From: Deltaproteobacteria bacterium
GTDB lineage: Bacteria; Myxococcota; Myxococcia; Myxococcales; Anaeromyxobacteraceae
Assembly: GCA_016214955.1 (NCBI GenBank)
Contig: JACRMN010000012.1
Span: 434,001 to 498,000, forward strand
DNA: 64,000 nt
Reading direction: 5' to 3'
The position numbers were made by a program, and so were the translations under genes. Shown piece after piece: positions 37,434-44,097 of the stretch. The notes under the pieces are model-generated. The model was given only the letters and a program-made list of their open reading frames with translations. It ran no database searches and was not told the DNA's origin. Numbering within the stretch: position 1 is the first letter of the stretch; each line of letters begins with the position of its first letter.

Positions 37434-38366
37434 ATGTCTCCCGCGGAACGCGCACCCCGGCCCGCCGGCGTGCTGGCGCCGGTGCTCACCCCCTTCGGCG
37501 CCGATCTGGCGCCCGACGCCGGCCGCCTGCTGCGCCACTGCCGCTGGCTCCTGGCCCAGGGCTGCGCCGGCCTGGCGGTGTTCGGCACCACCAGCGAGGC
37601 CAACTCGCTCTCGGTGGAGGAGAAGGAGGCGCTGCTCGACGCGCTCGTCGAGGGCGGGATCGATCCCTCCCGGCTCCTGCCCGGCACCGGGGCCTGCGCC
37701 CTCACCGACGCGGTGCGGCTCACCCGGCGCGCGGTGCAGCGCGGCTGCGCCGGGGTGCTGATGCTGCCGCCCTTCTACTACAAGGCGGTGAGCGAGGACG
37801 GCCTCTTCCGCAGCTTCGCCGAGGTCATCGAGCGGGTGGGGGACGATCGACTGCGAGTGTACCTGTACCACATCCCCCCGGTGGCCCAGGTGCCCATCGG
37901 GCCGGGCCTCATCGAGCGGCTGCTGCGGGCCTACCCGAAGGCCGTGGCCGGCATCAAGGACTCGAGCGGCGACTGGAACAACACCCGCATGCTCCTCGAC
38001 GGGTTCGCCGCCCGGGGCTTCGACGTCTTCGCCGGCAGCGAGCGCTTCCTGCTCGACAACCTGCGCGGCGGCGGCGCGGGCTGCATCACCGCCACTGCCA
38101 ACGTGAACCCGGGGGCCATCGCCCGGCTGGCGCGGGAGTGGCGCGGCCCCGAGGCCGACGCCCAGCAGGCCGGGCTCAACGCGGTGCGCGGTGCGGTGGA
38201 GAAGGTGCCGGTCATCGCCGGGCTCAAGGAGATCGTGGCCCACCACGCCGCCGACCCGGCCTGGCGCACGGTGCGGCCGCCGCTCTCCGGCCTCGCGCCG
38301 GCCCAGGCCGAGGGGCTGCTGTCCTCCCTGGCGGCGCTGGGCTTTTCCATGCCGGGGCTCCGGTAA
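37434..38366 (+). CDS. DapA-family class I aldolase/lyase
   Basis: A 310-residue TIM-barrel enzyme with the Schiff-base lysine in VAGIKDSSGDWNN, the catalytic tyrosine in YLYHIPPVAQVPIG and the GTTSEANSLSVEEK segment at the substrate carboxylate site. The family includes dihydrodipicolinate synthase, N-acetylneuraminate lyase and 2-keto-3-deoxy-sugar acid aldolases. Linkage 12 bp after the TRAP permease suggests it acts on the transported organic acid rather than in lysine synthesis. Its stop codon is inside the predicted -35 of the next gene. Confidence 0.88.
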   Translation: MSPAERAPRPAGVLAPVLTPFGADLAPDAGRLLRHCRWLLAQGCAGLAVFGTTSEANSLSVEEKEALLDALVEGGIDPSRLLPGTGACALTDAVRLTRRAVQRGCAGVLMLPPFYYKAVSEDGLFRSFAEVIERVGDDRLRVYLYHIPPVAQVPIGPGLIERLLRAYPKAVAGIKDSSGDWNNTRMLLDGFAARGFDVFAGSERFLLDNLRGGGAGCITATANVNPGAIARLAREWRGPEADAQQAGLNAVRGAVEKVPVIAGLKEIVAHHAADPAWRTVRPPLSGLAPAQAEGLLSSLAALGFSMPGLR

Positions 38367-38388
38367 CCTCCGGGGGAGCGGCTCGTCC
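38362..38388 (+). promoter_or_regulatory. ECF-type promoter motif, site 1 (sigma factor gene)
   Basis: GGTAACC (38362-38368), 15 nt, CGTCC (38384-38388). The same format occurs at 39639 and 41697. A -35 of GGAAC/GGTAAC type and a CGTC -10 are typical of ECF sigma factors. This copy lies directly in front of the ECF sigma gene, implying self-activation. Confidence 0.7.
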
Positions 38389-38396
38389 ATACTGGG

Positions 38397-39038
38397 GTGG
38401 TGCCCACCCCGCGTCCCCCCTGGCTCCGGCCGGTCCCCGCCCCCGCGGGCGGGAGCGGAGAGGCGCGCGCCGCCGAGGAGGCCGGCGACGCGGCCGACCG
38501 GGACGCGGTGGAGCGGGTGCTCGACGGCGACTCGCGGGCCTTCGACCCGGTGGTGCGCCGCCACGGCGCCCGGCTGGTGGCTCTGTGCTCCCGGGTCACG
38601 GGCACGCGCGACGTGGGCGAGGAGCTGGCGCAGGAGACGCTGGCGCGGGCCTACGCCAGCCTGGGCAGCTACCGGGGCGACTGCCAGGTGCGCCACTGGC
38701 TGATGCGCATCGCGCTCAACGGCTGCCGCGACTGGCTCAAGGCCGGGGCCCGCGCCGAGCGGCCCGCGGAGATCGCCGAGGAGGCGCTCTCGACGGCCCT
38801 GGCGCCCGACGAGGAGCTGGCGGGGCGGCAGGCGCTCTCGGCGCTGGAGAAGGCGCTGCGCTCGCTGCCCGACGTCTACCGCGAGGCCTTCGTGCTCTTC
38901 CACGTGGAGAACCTGAGCTACCTGGAGATGAGCCGGGTCACCGGGGCGCGGGTCGGCGCCCTCAAGGTGCGGGTGCACCGGGCCCGGGAGATGTTGCGCG
39001 ACCAGCTCGGCGAGCGGCTGGAGCTGGTATGGGGGTGA
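38397..39038 (+). CDS. ECF-subfamily RNA polymerase sigma factor
   Basis: The 213-residue protein has a Pro/Ala-rich head, region 2 (VLDGDSRAFDPVVRRHGARLVALC through ELAQETLARAYASLGSYRG, with the WLMRIALNGCRDWLK segment) and region 4 (ALRSLPDVYREAFVLFHVENLSYLEMSRVTGARVGALKVRVHRARE). The start is GTG 38397 or the next GTG at 38400. It is followed after 4 bp by its probable anti-sigma partner, and its own promoter motif recurs before two downstream units. Confidence 0.92.
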   Translation: MVPTPRPPWLRPVPAPAGGSGEARAAEEAGDAADRDAVERVLDGDSRAFDPVVRRHGARLVALCSRVTGTRDVGEELAQETLARAYASLGSYRGDCQVRHWLMRIALNGCRDWLKAGARAERPAEIAEEALSTALAPDEELAGRQALSALEKALRSLPDVYREAFVLFHVENLSYLEMSRVTGARVGALKVRVHRAREMLRDQLGERLELVWG

Positions 39039-39042
39039 GATC

Positions 39043-39630
39043 GTGGACCCGAGAGTGAAGAGGCTGCTCGACCGGGAGCTGGGGGCGCGCGAGGCGCTCG
39101 AGCTGGTGGCCGCGCTGCCCGAAGGCGAGCGCAAGGAGGTCCTGGCCTACCTGCGCCTCTCGTCGCTGGCGTCGGCGCTGCCGGCGGTGGAGCCCTCCGA
39201 GGGCTTCGAGGAGCGGGTGCGGGCCCGGATCCGGGCCCGCCCGGCGCCGCGCCGAGGCCTGTGGACCTGGCTGCGCACGCCGCGCCTCTCGCCCCTCGGG
39301 GCCCTGGGCGCGGTGGCGGCGGCGGTGGCCCTGGTGCTCGTGCCCGGCCTGCGGGAGCGGCCGCAGCCGCCCCAGGACCGGCTGGTGGCGCGGCTGGCGC
39401 TGCGGGCCCCGGAGGCGCGGCGGGTGTCGGTGGCCGGCGACTTCAACGGCTGGAGCACCGAGGCCACGCCGCTCCGGCGCGGCCCCGGCGGCGCCTGGAC
39501 CGTCGAGCTGCCGCTCGGTCCCGGCCGCCACCAGTACCAGTTCGTGGTCGACGGCACCTTCGTCCCCGACCCGGCGGCCCCCACCGTGGACGACGGCTTC
39601 GGCGGCCGGAACGCCATCCTCGACCTTTGA
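39043..39630 (+). CDS. Probable anti-sigma factor with periplasmic CBM48-like domain
   Basis: About 80 N-terminal residues form a helical cytoplasmic part (VKRLLDRELGAREALELVAAL), followed by one span (LGALGAVAAAVALVLVPGL) and, from about residue 110, an Ig-like isoamylase N-terminal/CBM48-type domain with VSVAGDFNGWSTEATPLRR and LGPGRHQYQFVVDG, ending DDGFGGRNAILDL. Position right after the sigma gene and one-span topology point to an anti-sigma factor. CBM48 domains bind alpha-glucans in known enzymes; here the periplasmic domain could sense a glycan or envelope protein. The role is inference. Confidence 0.72.
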   Translation: MDPRVKRLLDRELGAREALELVAALPEGERKEVLAYLRLSSLASALPAVEPSEGFEERVRARIRARPAPRRGLWTWLRTPRLSPLGALGAVAAAVALVLVPGLRERPQPPQDRLVARLALRAPEARRVSVAGDFNGWSTEATPLRRGPGGAWTVELPLGPGRHQYQFVVDGTFVPDPAAPTVDDGFGGRNAILDL

Positions 39631-39638
39631 TGGCGACC

Positions 39639-39665
39639 GGTAACCTTCCTCCGCCAGCGTCGTCC
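39639..39665 (+). promoter_or_regulatory. ECF-type promoter motif, site 2
   Basis: GGTAACC (39639-39645), 15 nt, CGTCC (39661-39665), 21 nt before the DUF4382 lipoprotein start. Identical spacing to sites 1 and 3. Confidence 0.7.
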
Positions 39666-39686
39666 GTACGGGGGAAAGGAGCCACC

Positions 39687-40364
39687 ATGAACCGCAACCT
39701 CGCGGCTTCGCTGGCCGCCCTGGGCCTCGCGGCCTGCGGCACCGGCAGCTCGACCCTCAACCTGGGGCTCACCAGCAACGACGCCACGGCTGCCTCGGCC
39801 GCCCAGGCCGCCAGGCCCACCGGCGACCTCATCGGCGTGAAGTCCATCGTGGTGACCGTGGCCAGCGTCTCGGTCCACGTCGCCGGCGGCGCCAGCGCCG
39901 ACCCGGCGGTCCCGCCCACGGCCGACGACGGCCCGGGCTGGGTGGTGCTCACCGACGTGCCCAAGGTCTACGACCTCGTGGCCCTGAGGGACGACTTCAC
40001 CGCCCCGCTGGCGAGCGGGACCGTGCCCGAGGGCAAGATCACCCAGATCCGCCTGGCGCTCTCCACCTCCGCCCCCGAGACCGGCGAGGGCGCGGACGCG
40101 ACCGCCGCCGCCGGCGGCCCGCCCCACGACGTCATCCCCGGCGCGGTGACCGAGCTCGACGACACCGTCTGCGACCTGCTCGTGCCCCGCTCGGCCTTCC
40201 GGCCCGGCATCAAGATCGTCCACCCCTTCCAGGCGCTCCCCGTCCCCGCGGGCGGCACCGTCGATGCGGTGGTGAACCTGCGCGTCAGGGACTCGGCGCG
40301 CGAGACCACCCCCGCGGGCTGCGCCTATCGCCTCAACCCGGTCATCCAGGTGACCGGTCGCTGA
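39687..40364 (+). CDS. DUF4382-type lipoprotein
   Basis: The 225-residue product has a lipoprotein signal (ASLAALGLAACGTGSS, lipid Cys at about 17), then an Ala-rich linker and a beta-rich domain resembling DUF4382: IGVKSIVVTVASVSVHV, VLTDVPKVYDLVALRD and LPVPAGGTVDAVVNLRVRD. Two further cysteines could form a disulfide. The gene has a GGAAAGGAG ribosome binding site and is preceded by an ECF-type promoter motif, so it should be a target of the sigma factor at 38397. Confidence 0.78.
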   Translation: MNRNLAASLAALGLAACGTGSSTLNLGLTSNDATAASAAQAARPTGDLIGVKSIVVTVASVSVHVAGGASADPAVPPTADDGPGWVVLTDVPKVYDLVALRDDFTAPLASGTVPEGKITQIRLALSTSAPETGEGADATAAAGGPPHDVIPGAVTELDDTVCDLLVPRSAFRPGIKIVHPFQALPVPAGGTVDAVVNLRVRDSARETTPAGCAYRLNPVIQVTGR

Positions 40365-40384
40365 ACCGGCGTGTCGCCGGGACA

Positions 40385-40422
40385 CGGCGGCGGCGAGGCC
40401 CCCCGCAACCTCGCCGCCGCCG
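40385..40422 (+). terminator. Hairpin terminator after the DUF4382 gene
   Basis: A 14-bp perfect GC stem with a 10-nt loop lies 21 bp after the stop codon. There is no T run. It separates the lipoprotein gene from the next gene, which has its own -10-like TAGAAT. Confidence 0.6.
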
Positions 40423-40469
40423 GCAGCACTCCGGGTGGCCGTCTCGCGGCCGTCCGCTAGAATGGCGCG

Positions 40470-41366
40470 GTGCTCCGCCCGGCCGCGCTCCTCGTCCTCC
40501 TGGTGCCGGCCGCAGCGGGAGCTACGCACGGCCGGCTCCAGCTCTCCCTCTACGCAGGCGGCGGGCTGGCGAGCGACCTCTTCGTCGGCGCCGGCCTGGG
40601 GCGCGACGGGATCCTGGAGCTGCAGCCCGAGGCGCGGCTCGACCTCTCCCTGTCGCCGCGGTGGAAGCTGGCGACGCGCCTCTCGGGCGGCTACGCCTCC
40701 TTCACCCGCTCCGGCTTCTCGGCAGGCAGCGGCGCCGCCGAGTCGCAGCTCCGCTGGCTCGGAGAGGAGCGCGAGGGGGGCCTGGCCCTCGCCGCCGAGC
40801 AGGTCGCCTACTCCACCGGCGCGCCGCTCGACCCCACGCTGCCCTCGTCTCCGACCGTCACCCGCAGCCGCGCCCTGCGGCTCACGCCGCTGGTCCGCTG
40901 GCAGGGCTGGGGCGCCCAGTGGCGGCTGGCGGCGCCGCTCGCCTACCAGTCCTCCTCCGCCGCAGGCCAGGACGTGGCCGAGCGGGACGGGGCGCTGCTC
41001 GCCGGCGCGGCGCTGCAGCTCGGCCCCTGGGCGCTGGCCGGCAGCTACCGGCTGCAGCGGGCCGAGAGCGACAGGCCCGACTTCACCGCCACCTCCCACG
41101 GCCTCTTCGCCACCGCCGGGAGGCCGGCCGGCCCGGTGGAGCTCGAGGGGCAGCTCCAGGGGCTCTGGCTCCACACCGGCGCCGGCACCCGCGAGCAGCT
41201 CCTGCGCGCCGGCCTGTCGGCGGCCTGGCCCTTCGCCCGGGGGCTGTGGCTCGAGGCGGTCTACGGCTTCGCCGGTGCCTGGACCGACGCGCCCGGCGAG
41301 GGCTTCTCCTCCCGCCACCAGGTGACGCTGGGGCTGCGCGGCAAGGTGGAGGCGGTGTCGTGGTGA
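40470..41366 (+). CDS. Predicted outer-membrane beta-barrel protein
   Basis: The 298-residue protein has a short signal (LLVLLVPAAAGATH) and alternating amphipathic strands with Gly/Ser/Thr turns throughout (WKLATRLSGGYASFT, WGAQWRLAAPLAYQS, WALAGSYRLQRAES, LWLEAVYGFAGAW), ending in RHQVTLGLRGKVEAVSW, a plausible terminal strand with aromatic last residue. The pattern suits a small barrel. No named family is recognised. GTG 40470 lies 7 nt after TAGAAT. It overlaps the CBM48-like lipoprotein gene by 4 bp. Confidence 0.65.
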   Translation: MLRPAALLVLLVPAAAGATHGRLQLSLYAGGGLASDLFVGAGLGRDGILELQPEARLDLSLSPRWKLATRLSGGYASFTRSGFSAGSGAAESQLRWLGEEREGGLALAAEQVAYSTGAPLDPTLPSSPTVTRSRALRLTPLVRWQGWGAQWRLAAPLAYQSSSAAGQDVAERDGALLAGAALQLGPWALAGSYRLQRAESDRPDFTATSHGLFATAGRPAGPVELEGQLQGLWLHTGAGTREQLLRAGLSAAWPFARGLWLEAVYGFAGAWTDAPGEGFSSRHQVTLGLRGKVEAVSW

Positions 41367-41701
41367 GGGGGATGGCCCTGGCACTCGCGCTCCTCGCCGC
41401 GGCCTGCGCCGCGCCGGGGTCGTCGCTGCGGCCCGGGACCGGCGGTGGCGAGACCACCTTCCGGGTCCACGGGCCGGCGGACGAGGTCTGGCTGGTCGGC
41501 AGCATGACCGGCTGGCGGCCCGTCCCGCTGGCGAGGGACGGCGACCAGTGGGTGCTCCGGCTCCCCCTCGAGCCGGGCAGGTACGAGTACCGGCTGGAGG
41601 TGCGCGAGCACGGCGTCACCCGGGTGGAGTGGCTGCCGGGGGCGGAGCGGGCCGACGACGGCTTCGGGGGGGAGAATGGCATCCTGCGCGTCGAGCGGTA
41701 A
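41363..41701 (+). CDS. Lipoprotein with CBM48-like domain
   Basis: GTG 41363 gives a 4-bp overlap with the preceding stop; ATG 41372 is an alternative. A lipoprotein-type signal (ALALALLAAACAAPG) precedes one Ig-like domain: TTFRVHGPADEVWLVGSMTGW, WVLRLPLEPGRYEYRLEV and DDGFGGENGILRVE. This is the same domain, with the same DDGFGG-N-IL ending, as in the anti-sigma candidate at 39043. The two may compete for or share a ligand. The domain lacks any catalytic part. Confidence 0.75.
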   Translation: MRGMALALALLAAACAAPGSSLRPGTGGGETTFRVHGPADEVWLVGSMTGWRPVPLARDGDQWVLRLPLEPGRYEYRLEVREHGVTRVEWLPGAERADDGFGGENGILRVER

Positions 41702-41723
41702 CCTCGAACGGGGCCTGTCGTCT
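41697..41723 (+). promoter_or_regulatory. ECF-type promoter motif, site 3
   Basis: GGTAACC (41697-41703) overlaps the end of the CBM48-like lipoprotein gene; after 15 nt comes CGTCT (41719-41723), 14 nt before the start of the next gene. Same format as sites 1 and 2. Confidence 0.65.
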
Positions 41724-41737
41724 GGAAGGGGAGAGCC

Positions 41738-42616
41738 GTGAGAACCATCGCCGCCATCGCCGCCGCCCTCCTCCTCCCCCTGGGAGCGCACGCCGAGCCC
41801 GTGGCCGACGCGGTCGCGGCCGGCGTCCCCGCCGCCGTGGCCCGCCAGGTGGCCGAGCGGGCCGAGGGGCGCGGGGTGCCCGCGGCGCTGGTGCTGGCCC
41901 CGGTGGCCGACGCCGCCCGGCTCGGCGTGCCCGGCGAGCTGGTGGCCGACAAGGTGCTCGAGGGGCTGGCCAAGGGTGTCCCCGGGGAGCGCATCGCCGC
42001 AGTGGCCCGCGGGCTGGGCGAGCGGCTGGCGGAGGCCGAGCGGATCCTGCGCGCCGCGCGCCAGGCCGGGTTGCCGGCGCCGGCGGAGCGACGCGCCGCC
42101 CTCACCGACCTGGCCCAGTCGCTCCAGGCCGGGGCGCCGCGTCCGGCGCTCGACGATCTCCTCTCCGCGGCGCGCGCCGCCCGCACCGGCTCCGACGCGG
42201 TGGTGGCCGCCGCCCATTCCCTGGGCGAGCTGGCCCGGCGCGGCGTCCCCCCGGCGGACGCCCTGCCGCTGGCCCGCGCCCTGGCCGGCAGCCGGGGCCC
42301 GGCCGGCGACCCGGTGGCGGTGTTCGACGCCTGGCGCGCCGAGGGCGGGCGCGACGTGGCCGGGTTCCTCTCCGAGGCCACCCGCCGCGTCGAGTCGGGC
42401 AGGAAGCTCGACGGCATGGTGGACTACTTCGGCGAGAGCGCCGACAAGCTGCAGCGCTCCCGCTCCGAGGAGCGCGGCGAGCGAGGAGCCGACCCCGAGA
42501 AGGGCAAGGGGCTCTCGCCGGCCGAACGGCCCGACGCCGCCCGCGGGGCGGTGCCGGGTCTCGACGACGCTGCGCGCGGCCGCAAGGGTGGCAAGCCCCC
42601 CCGGGGCAGGCCCTAG
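41738..42616 (+). CDS. Exported helical repeat-like protein
   Basis: The 292-residue protein starts at GTG 41738 after GGAAGGGGAGAG and has a signal peptide (TIAAIAAALLLPLGAHAEP). The mature part is Ala-rich and helical with a recurring theme of GVPAALV / GVPGELV / GVPGERI / GVPPADAL turns at intervals of about 20-45 residues, indicating short helical repeats. The C-terminus is charged and disordered. No family is recognised. The ECF promoter motif just upstream suggests sigma control. Confidence 0.7.
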   Translation: MRTIAAIAAALLLPLGAHAEPVADAVAAGVPAAVARQVAERAEGRGVPAALVLAPVADAARLGVPGELVADKVLEGLAKGVPGERIAAVARGLGERLAEAERILRAARQAGLPAPAERRAALTDLAQSLQAGAPRPALDDLLSAARAARTGSDAVVAAAHSLGELARRGVPPADALPLARALAGSRGPAGDPVAVFDAWRAEGGRDVAGFLSEATRRVESGRKLDGMVDYFGESADKLQRSRSEERGERGADPEKGKGLSPAERPDAARGAVPGLDDAARGRKGGKPPRGRP

Positions 42617-42675: not shown

Positions 42676-44097
42676 GTGCGCCTCGAACGACTCGCCGCGC
42701 CGCTGCTCGCCACCCTGCTCTGGGCCTGCAGCAGCAGCAGCCACCCCACCTGCGATCCCGCCAGCCCCACCTCCTGCCCGGCCGGCCGGGTCTGCGAGAC
42801 GGTGAGCGGCGCGCCGCCCGCCTGCGTGCCTCCGCTGGTGATCCGCGGGACGGTGCGCGACCTCGCCTCCGGCGCCGCGGTGGCCGGGGCCCGGGTGGTG
42901 GCGCTCGACCAGAACCGGGCGCCGGCCAGCGCCGTGGCCACCACCGCCGCCGACGGCACCTACGCGCTCGAGGTACCGGCGGCGCGCGACGGCTCCGGCG
43001 CCCCGGCCGCGGCCGGGGTGACGCTGCGGGCCGACGCCGACGGCTACCAGAGCTTCCCCGGCGGCGTGCGCACGGCGCTGCCCATCGACCTGGCCACCGC
43101 CGCCTACGCCTCCGGCGCCGGGCGGTGGGAGCTGTCCGGCTCGCTCACCCAGGTCGGGCTCATCGCCTTGCCCGCCGACGCCACCCGCGCCCGCATCCAC
43201 GGCACCGTGGCGGTGCCCCCCTCGCGCGTGGGCGTGCTGGTGGTGGCCGAGCAGGGCGGGGTGGGCCGCGCCGTCATCGCCGACCGCAACGGCGGCTACG
43301 TGATCTTCAACCTGCCGGTGCCGGCCGATCCCACCCCCTACCGGGTGGAGGCCTACGCCCAGGGCGTGCAGTTCGCACCGGTGAACGTCGACCTCTCGCC
43401 CGGCGGCGACGGCCAGGCCAACCTCGCCATCTCCGGCGCGGCCGCCATCGGCTTCGGCGGCAACCTCATCTACAACAACGGCGTGGGCCCGCCGACGCAG
43501 GTGGCGCTGGCGGTGGCCTCCACCTACCTGGCCTCGCTCGACCGGGGCGAGACGCCGCCCGGGCTGGTGGCCCGCGTGGCCACGGGCAGCACCTACGCCT
43601 TCCAGGGCGTGCCCGACGGCACCTACCGGGTGCTGGCCTCCTTCGACGTGGACGGGGCGGTGCGCGACGTCTCCGGCGGTGGCAACACCGATTCGCCGAC
43701 GGTGACGGTGAGCGGCGGGGCGGTGCAGGGGGCGGTGCCGGGCTTCAAGCTCTGCGGGGCGGTGGACCTCACCTCCATCGACGGCCAGACCAGCCTGGGC
43801 ACGGCGCCGGTGGCGCTCACCCACGCCGCTCCGGCCTTCGTCTGGCAGAGGCAGTCCACCTATGCCAGCGCCGCGTACTACCGCATCCAGGTGATCGACG
43901 CCCTGGGCCAGCCGACCTGGGAGGTGGAGCAGGCGGCGACCGCCGGCACCAACCAGGTCACCTACGCCGGCCCGGCGCTGGCGCCGGGCATGTACTACCA
44001 GCTCCGCATCCAGGCCCTCGACGGCGCCTCGAGCGATCCGCTCACGGTGCAGCTCTCGCAGACCGAGGACCTGAAGGGCGTGTTCACGCTGCCGTAG
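42676..44097 (+). CDS. Lipoprotein with carboxypeptidase-regulatory-like (Ig) domains
   Basis: GTG 42676 follows GAGGAGG with good spacing. The 473-residue product has a lipoprotein signal (PLLATLLWACSSSS), a Cys-rich short stretch (CDPASPTSCPAGRVCE) and a CarboxypepD_reg-type domain (IRGTVRDLASGAAVAGARVVAL, ADGTYALEVP). Further beta domains follow, including IHGTVAVPPSRVGVLV and VATGSTYAFQGVPDGTYRVLASF. The last part resembles a fibronectin-like domain. Probably surface-exposed and structural or ligand-binding; it lies 60 bp after the helical protein in the same unit. Confidence 0.75.
   Translation: MRLERLAAPLLATLLWACSSSSHPTCDPASPTSCPAGRVCETVSGAPPACVPPLVIRGTVRDLASGAAVAGARVVALDQNRAPASAVATTAADGTYALEVPAARDGSGAPAAAGVTLRADADGYQSFPGGVRTALPIDLATAAYASGAGRWELSGSLTQVGLIALPADATRARIHGTVAVPPSRVGVLVVAEQGGVGRAVIADRNGGYVIFNLPVPADPTPYRVEAYAQGVQFAPVNVDLSPGGDGQANLAISGAAAIGFGGNLIYNNGVGPPTQVALAVASTYLASLDRGETPPGLVARVATGSTYAFQGVPDGTYRVLASFDVDGAVRDVSGGGNTDSPTVTVSGGAVQGAVPGFKLCGAVDLTSIDGQTSLGTAPVALTHAAPAFVWQRQSTYASAAYYRIQVIDALGQPTWEVEQAATAGTNQVTYAGPALAPGMYYQLRIQALDGASSDPLTVQLSQTEDLKGVFTLP

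Follow-up and report, generated by a model that had tools for sequence, protein, structure and literature searches.

Background

Where a gene for a sigma factor of the extracytoplasmic function (ECF) type is accompanied by several copies of one short motif, the question arises whether that motif is the promoter read by the sigma factor, and how far the regulon so defined extends. We address this question in a 64,000-nucleotide (nt) stretch of the genome of a Deltaproteobacteria bacterium of the Anaeromyxobacteraceae (Myxococcota; assembly GCA_016214955.1, contig JACRMN010000012.1, positions 434,001 to 498,000; hereafter the window), in which an ECF sigma gene is accompanied by copies of GGTAACC-N15-CGTC. 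We conclude that these sites are very probably promoters read by the holoenzyme containing the adjacent ECF sigma factor, which would be held by a membrane anti-sigma factor, released by an envelope signal and dedicated to a small and mostly local regulon.

Three probable ECF-type promoter sites in the window

An exact search of the window detected precisely three copies of GGTAACC-N15-CGTC, each on the + strand, confirming the count given by an earlier sequence-only reading of this DNA, and no copy was found in 100 dinucleotide shuffles of the window. The sites are as follows:

38362..38388, + strand: ECF-type promoter 1, GGTAACC-N15-CGTCC, whose -35 element contains the TAA stop codon of a DHDPS-family gene (exact match; 0 in 1000 shuffles of the upstream region)
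39639..39665, + strand: ECF-type promoter 2, GGTAACC-N15-CGTCC, intergenic (exact match; counterpart before a DUF4382 lipoprotein gene in genome G092)
41697..41723, + strand: ECF-type promoter 3, GGTAACC-N15-CGTCT, whose -35 element contains the TAA stop codon of a CBM48 lipoprotein gene (exact match; same place in six other loci)

The invariant part of the three sites is longer than had been noted, namely GGTAACCT-N13-TCGTC, and in the form customary for ECF promoters it reads GGTAAC-N16-CGTC; the base following CGTC is C at 38362 and 39639 and T at 41697. Each site directly precedes a gene on the same strand, as the sequence-only reading had stated, with the end of CGTC lying 9 nt from the GTG start of the sigma gene at 38397, 22 nt from the ATG of a DUF4382 lipoprotein gene at 39687 and 15 nt from the GTG of a gene for a helical exported protein at 41738. 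The sites combine the properties expected of ECF-type promoters: a -35 element with AAC, a -10 element CGT(C), a fixed spacing (16-17 nt expected, 16 nt here) and a position just 5' of a gene. Two genes in the middle of the block, encoding a barrel protein and the CBM48 lipoprotein, have no copy of their own.

That a motif is repeated says little on its own about its meaning: the window has more than 30 other dyads of 8+5 bases, most of them highly GC-rich, with three or more occurrences inside 5 kb. What is exceptional about the three sites is their AT-containing composition, their placement and their conservation, of which the last two carry the case.

Two further observations concern the sites themselves. 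The stop codon (TAA) of the gene in front repeatedly falls within the -35 element (window 38362-38368 and 41697-41703; L046 at about 8034), even where that gene is unrelated. If transcription starts about 10 nt past CGTC, as it does for Tt-RpoE1 (see below), the 5' end of the sigma mRNA would coincide with or adjoin its GTG start codon (window 38387-38400), leaving little or no leader.

Conservation of the block and the motif in relatives

Relatives were compared using gene calls made by a simple GC-frame method, and upstream motifs were evaluated against 1000 shuffles of 150-nt regions at N16 spacing only. Conserved in the module are the ECF sigma factor, a putative anti-sigma factor with a CBM48 domain, the CBM48 lipoprotein and the helical exported protein, together with a probable outer-membrane barrel; a DUF4382 lipoprotein is frequently present as well. 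The block running from sigma through CBM48 anti-sigma, barrel and CBM48 lipoprotein to the helical gene is kept in G035, G008, G123 (Anaeromyxobacter oryzae), G058 (A. oryzisoli, split over two contigs) and G059 (from another family), and occurs in reduced or rearranged form in G001, G067 and G192; a separate scan of genome contigs returned two loci only, those of A. oryzae and A. oryzisoli.

The constant feature of this block is the site before the helical gene: GTAAC-N16-CGTC lies directly 5' of that gene in all six GTAAC-type loci besides the window, each time at a frequency of at most 0.4% in the shuffles. As G035 and G008 are near relatives, about five of these six loci are independent. 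A seventh genome, G092, carries the motif before its sigma gene and before a divergent DUF4382 lipoprotein gene. The proposal that the motif is the recognition sequence of the sigma factor is upheld both by these upstream regions and by the co-diverged dyads described below. Before sigma itself, the motif is exact in the window and in G092, has one mismatch in G059 and G001, and has a 17-nt spacer in G072.

Outside these loci, relatives of the sigma factor or of the CBM48 anti-sigma factor in the second systems of G059 (C24 and C36), in G194 and in G188 showed no GTA(A/T)C-N16-CGT 5' of sigma. Motif matches in G123 and G067:C18 were dismissed as lying within coding sequence, and one in G035, outside called genes and with no obvious target, was set aside; a match at G059:C59:10996 precedes a gene for an Ig/RCC1-repeat lipoprotein and is suggestive only. 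One open frame of G001 (L046:5284-6333) encodes both sigma region 2 and the CBM48 anti-sigma factor, and region 4 has no Pfam match in it, which reflects either a deletion in frame or a faulty assembly; promoters remain recognizable 5' of this fused frame and of the helical gene.

Co-divergence of the motif with the sigma factor

More distant versions of the module have a dyad of their own, with the spacing unchanged and with occurrence almost confined to the locus. In G067, GTATC-N16-CGTTTT precedes the sigma gene as well as the helical gene, accounting for two of the three copies in that genome; in G192, which lies outside the class of the window, GTATC-N16-CGTATT precedes a DUF4382 gene and a divergent lipoprotein gene, the only two copies in the genome. 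A tree of 35 sigma factors places all those associated with GTAAC in one clade (support 100/99), which also includes one second G059 sigma factor without a site, and those associated with GTATC elsewhere. These patterns support the view that the signal changes in step with the sigma lineage and that the -35/-10 pair has co-diverged between lineages. Residue D112 is invariant in 10 of 10 aligned module sigma factors and is the counterpart of the D in the region 2.4 DXXR of Tt-RpoE1, which reads -12G (PMC3397946); its constancy would be in line with that of the G of CGTN.

Extent of the regulon

The 13-base form of the motif is confined to the three window sites in the source assembly (G000; 5.3 Mb, 95.6% complete). 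The whole-genome scan for GGTAACC-N15-CGTC that the sequence-only reading had suggested returned four copies, all 5' of a gene. The new one is on another contig (G000:C15:137238; L037:3239-3264), 45 nt 5' of a gene for a lipoprotein of 378 amino acids without Pfam match, which is probably a distant member of the regulon and is treated here as a candidate. Two GGTAACC copies with other spacings, on C9 and C22, lie within genes. A large regulon spread over the genome was rejected: with as many as two mismatches permitted, the 13-base motif had 28 matches in the genome versus 42 for a reversed control, nearly all of those away from the locus being intragenic, and across the family off-locus matches were about as frequent as those of the reversed-pattern control. 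The regulon thus appears to be small and mostly but not wholly local, because of the C15 copy on the one hand and the absence of excess genome-wide matches on the other; the earlier description of a local envelope regulon fits the content of the module, and "self-contained" holds except for that fourth copy.

The looser pattern VGTAAC-N15-TCGTC has one extra site in the genome, 22 nt 5' of a gene for an NtrC-type response regulator. Near-motif copies at G000:C4:211307 and G000:C19:34406 adjoin response-regulator genes, encoding a receiver-domain protein and an NtrC-type activator, respectively.

Genes of the module

The genes and the other element of the locus are listed below:

38397..39038, + strand: ECF sigma factor, GTG start at 38397 or 38400 (Pfam Sigma70_r2 and Sigma70_r4_2; TIGR02937; PDB relatives RpoE, SigW and SigH)
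39043..39630, + strand: putative membrane anti-sigma factor with a helical cytoplasmic N-terminal part, one hydrophobic segment and a C-terminal CBM48/AMPK1_CBM domain (profiles; conserved adjacency to sigma)
39687..40364, + strand: DUF4382 lipoprotein, lipobox LAAC (PF14321, 1.4e-12)
40386..40421, + strand: 13-bp GC stem-loop without U tract just past the DUF4382 gene, a possible transcription-unit boundary (fold z -2.43)
40470..41366, + strand: exported beta-barrel protein (predicted long antiparallel strands; Foldseek; conserved in the module)
41363..41701, + strand: CBM48/AMPK1_CBM lipoprotein with lipoprotein-like signal, starting at GTG 41363, which overlaps the barrel stop, or ATG 41372 (profile; conserved position)
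41738..42616, + strand: helical exported protein, the most constant target gene (alignment of homologues)
42676..44097, + strand: CarboxypepD_reg lipoprotein, 3' of the helical gene (PF13620, 1.3e-14)

With regions 2 and 4 only, about 200 amino acids and 70.7 bits to the sigma70-ECF model TIGR02937 (cut-off 42.9), the sigma factor belongs to the ECF class (group IV). The product of 39043-39630 is likely its anti-sigma factor because of its position and a partial, weak match below cut-off to the anti-sigma model NF052375 (1.3e-6). Its C-terminal domain, of the AMPK-type, alpha-glucan-binding CBM48 family and identified by AMPK1_CBM (1.9e-12; 47.7 bits against a cut-off of 26.8) and CBM_48 (1e-9), has AMPK beta-2 as its best PDB match and is expected to lie in the periplasm. 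Among the CBM48 residues that we take to contact glycans, the Trp of FNxW and an Asn near the end align, while the AMPK Lys is replaced by Gln and the second Trp by Phe. In G194 (L195:4664-5874), the gene that follows an ECF sigma gene encodes a CBM48 protein whose CxxC segment is like that of zinc anti-sigma domains, which suggests that CBM48 may have been joined to different anti-sigma types.

The barrel protein (about 298 amino acids) has no Pfam match, and Foldseek relates its predicted structure to the porins and TonB barrels OmpG, CymA and BtuB (E about 1e-5, low template-modelling scores), making it a probable outer-membrane barrel. In G067 and G192 (L045:7573-8892 and L155:9890-11107), one fused protein combines the barrel with the CBM48 domain, which the window encodes in separate genes. 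Since the termini of outer-membrane barrels usually both point into the periplasm, the fused CBM48 domain would be expected in that compartment, as is that of the anti-sigma factor. The CBM48 lipoprotein of the window scores 0.1 bit under the curated AMPK1_CBM cut-off (6.7e-6). The helical exported protein is present in 9 of 195 genomes of the phylum, and the CarboxypepD_reg lipoprotein, without a homologue at other loci of the module, is a lineage-specific addition.

Alternative explanations

Several observations weigh against the assignment of the sites to the adjacent sigma factor. The anti-sigma domain is weakly recognized by profiles and its single-sequence structure is poor (predicted local distance difference test 54.7), with the helices at low confidence. 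No motif precedes sigma in the upstream regions of the close orthologues in G008, G035, G123 and G058, and the G192 sigma gene has no site before itself. Because the motif precedes sigma in some relatives and is absent in those four, autoregulation, which the sequence-only reading had proposed, appears to be lineage-dependent: it stands for the source genome and G092 and, allowing one mismatch, for G059 and G001, whereas what stays constant is the control of the helical gene. At the conserved helical-gene site, both in the window and in the other loci read, the -35 element takes in the TAA stop that ends the gene 5' of it, and part of its conservation may be driven by coding; this overlap explains neither the intergenic site at 39639 nor CGTC at exactly N16. 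Finally, other ECF sigma factors are encoded in the genome and could read similar promoters, and AAC in the -35 and CGTC in the -10 element are common to many ECF sigma factors (PMC3397946). That the sites are promoters used by one or several of these rather than by the adjacent sigma factor is nevertheless improbable, given their concentration at the locus of that factor and the different dyad found at the same module in each of three lineages, the GTAAC sites tracking one sigma clade.

It is less probable still that the dyad is the operator of a conventional regulator. An operator would also look like a dyad 5' of genes, but the two halves are neither palindromic nor direct repeats of each other, their orientation always matches that of the gene, the spacing is fixed at 16 with start codons close by, and the whole closely matches a mapped ECF promoter. 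Chance repetition in a GC-rich window, with the -35 element conserved by way of TAA stop codons, might be argued from the other exact dyads that occur three times in the window and from the stop codon inside two of the three sites. We give this explanation almost no credence: shuffling produced no copy, the site at 39639 is intergenic, and it is already contradicted by CGTC at exactly N16 in six orthologous loci and by the distant lineages with their own locus-restricted dyads.

Proposed mechanism

ECF holoenzymes require stringent -35 and -10 elements and a fixed spacing between them (PMC6411747). In the promoter assignment that we favor, region 4 of the sigma factor would read the -35 element GGTAACCT and region 2 the -10 element TCGTC, with 16 nt between GTAAC and CGTC. 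The membrane CBM48 anti-sigma factor encoded next door would normally sequester the sigma factor until a signal from the envelope frees it, the simplest candidates for that signal being a glycan ligand and the state of the partner barrel and CBM48 lipoprotein. Freed sigma would transcribe its own operon, giving positive feedback in the source genome, and would also drive the genes for the DUF4382 lipoprotein, for the helical protein with the CarboxypepD lipoprotein and, probably, for the one distant lipoprotein. We thus interpret the module as an ECF switch that would respond to the envelope or to a glycan and control a small local regulon; its unusual part is that CBM48 occurs twice. A more specific version, which we regard as rather doubtful, would be a glycan- or barrel-responsive form of surface signalling in Myxococcota, in which a barrel fused to or partnered by a periplasmic CBM48 domain talks to the CBM48 anti-sigma factor without TonB-type signalling and the -35/-10 pair has drifted with the sigma factor. 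Motif, spacing, placement, conservation, co-divergence and domain content are read directly from the sequences; promoter binding, anti-sigma activity, the signal, release and communication between barrel and CBM48 are what we infer from them.

Relation to known systems and significance

The envelope-stress sigma factors SigW, SigX and SigM of Bacillus have TGAAAC/TGTAAC-N16/17-CGT(A/C) promoters, autoregulation and envelope regulons; unlike the present module, they have large regulons and unrelated sensor domains. In FecI/FecR/FecA cell-surface signalling, an ECF sigma factor, a membrane anti-sigma factor and an outer-membrane barrel are co-encoded, as are a sigma factor, a putative anti-sigma factor and a probable barrel here; in contrast to that system, no TonB-dependent receptor with an N-terminal signalling domain was seen at the locus, the barrel being of about 298 amino acids without Pfam match, and the shared domain is CBM48. 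The experimentally mapped promoter of Tt-RpoE1 from Thermoanaerobacter tengcongensis, tGTTAC-N16-CGTC, is autoregulated, and the anti-sigma gene adjoins that of sigma (PMC3397946). Spacing and -10 element are the same here, and a putative anti-sigma gene likewise adjoins sigma, whereas the -35 element is GTAAC instead of GTTAC, the putative anti-sigma factor carries CBM48 instead of being a TolB-like protein, and the phylum differs. In the SigI/RsgI polysaccharide sensing of Clostridium thermocellum, the exterior domain of the anti-sigma factor is carbohydrate-binding (PMC12203970, PMC6056542), a likeness to the exported domain of the putative anti-sigma factor found here. SigI is not of the same ECF family, the host is Gram-positive, the domains are of other CBM families and the regulon consists of cellulosome genes. 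Literature searches that combined sigma factors with CBM48 or with DUF4382 returned nothing relevant.

The type of switch is ordinary, and its target set consists of poorly known outer-envelope proteins. CBM48 on both the anti-sigma and the barrel/lipoprotein sides suggests a signalling route of which we found no description in the literature searched. The analysis supplies a concrete, testable promoter for an uncharacterized ECF sigma factor and would assign regulated genes to little-known families, the DUF4382 lipoproteins and the helical exported protein. In distant lineages the module recurs with a shifted motif and offers a natural series for the co-evolution of sigma factors and promoter specificity.

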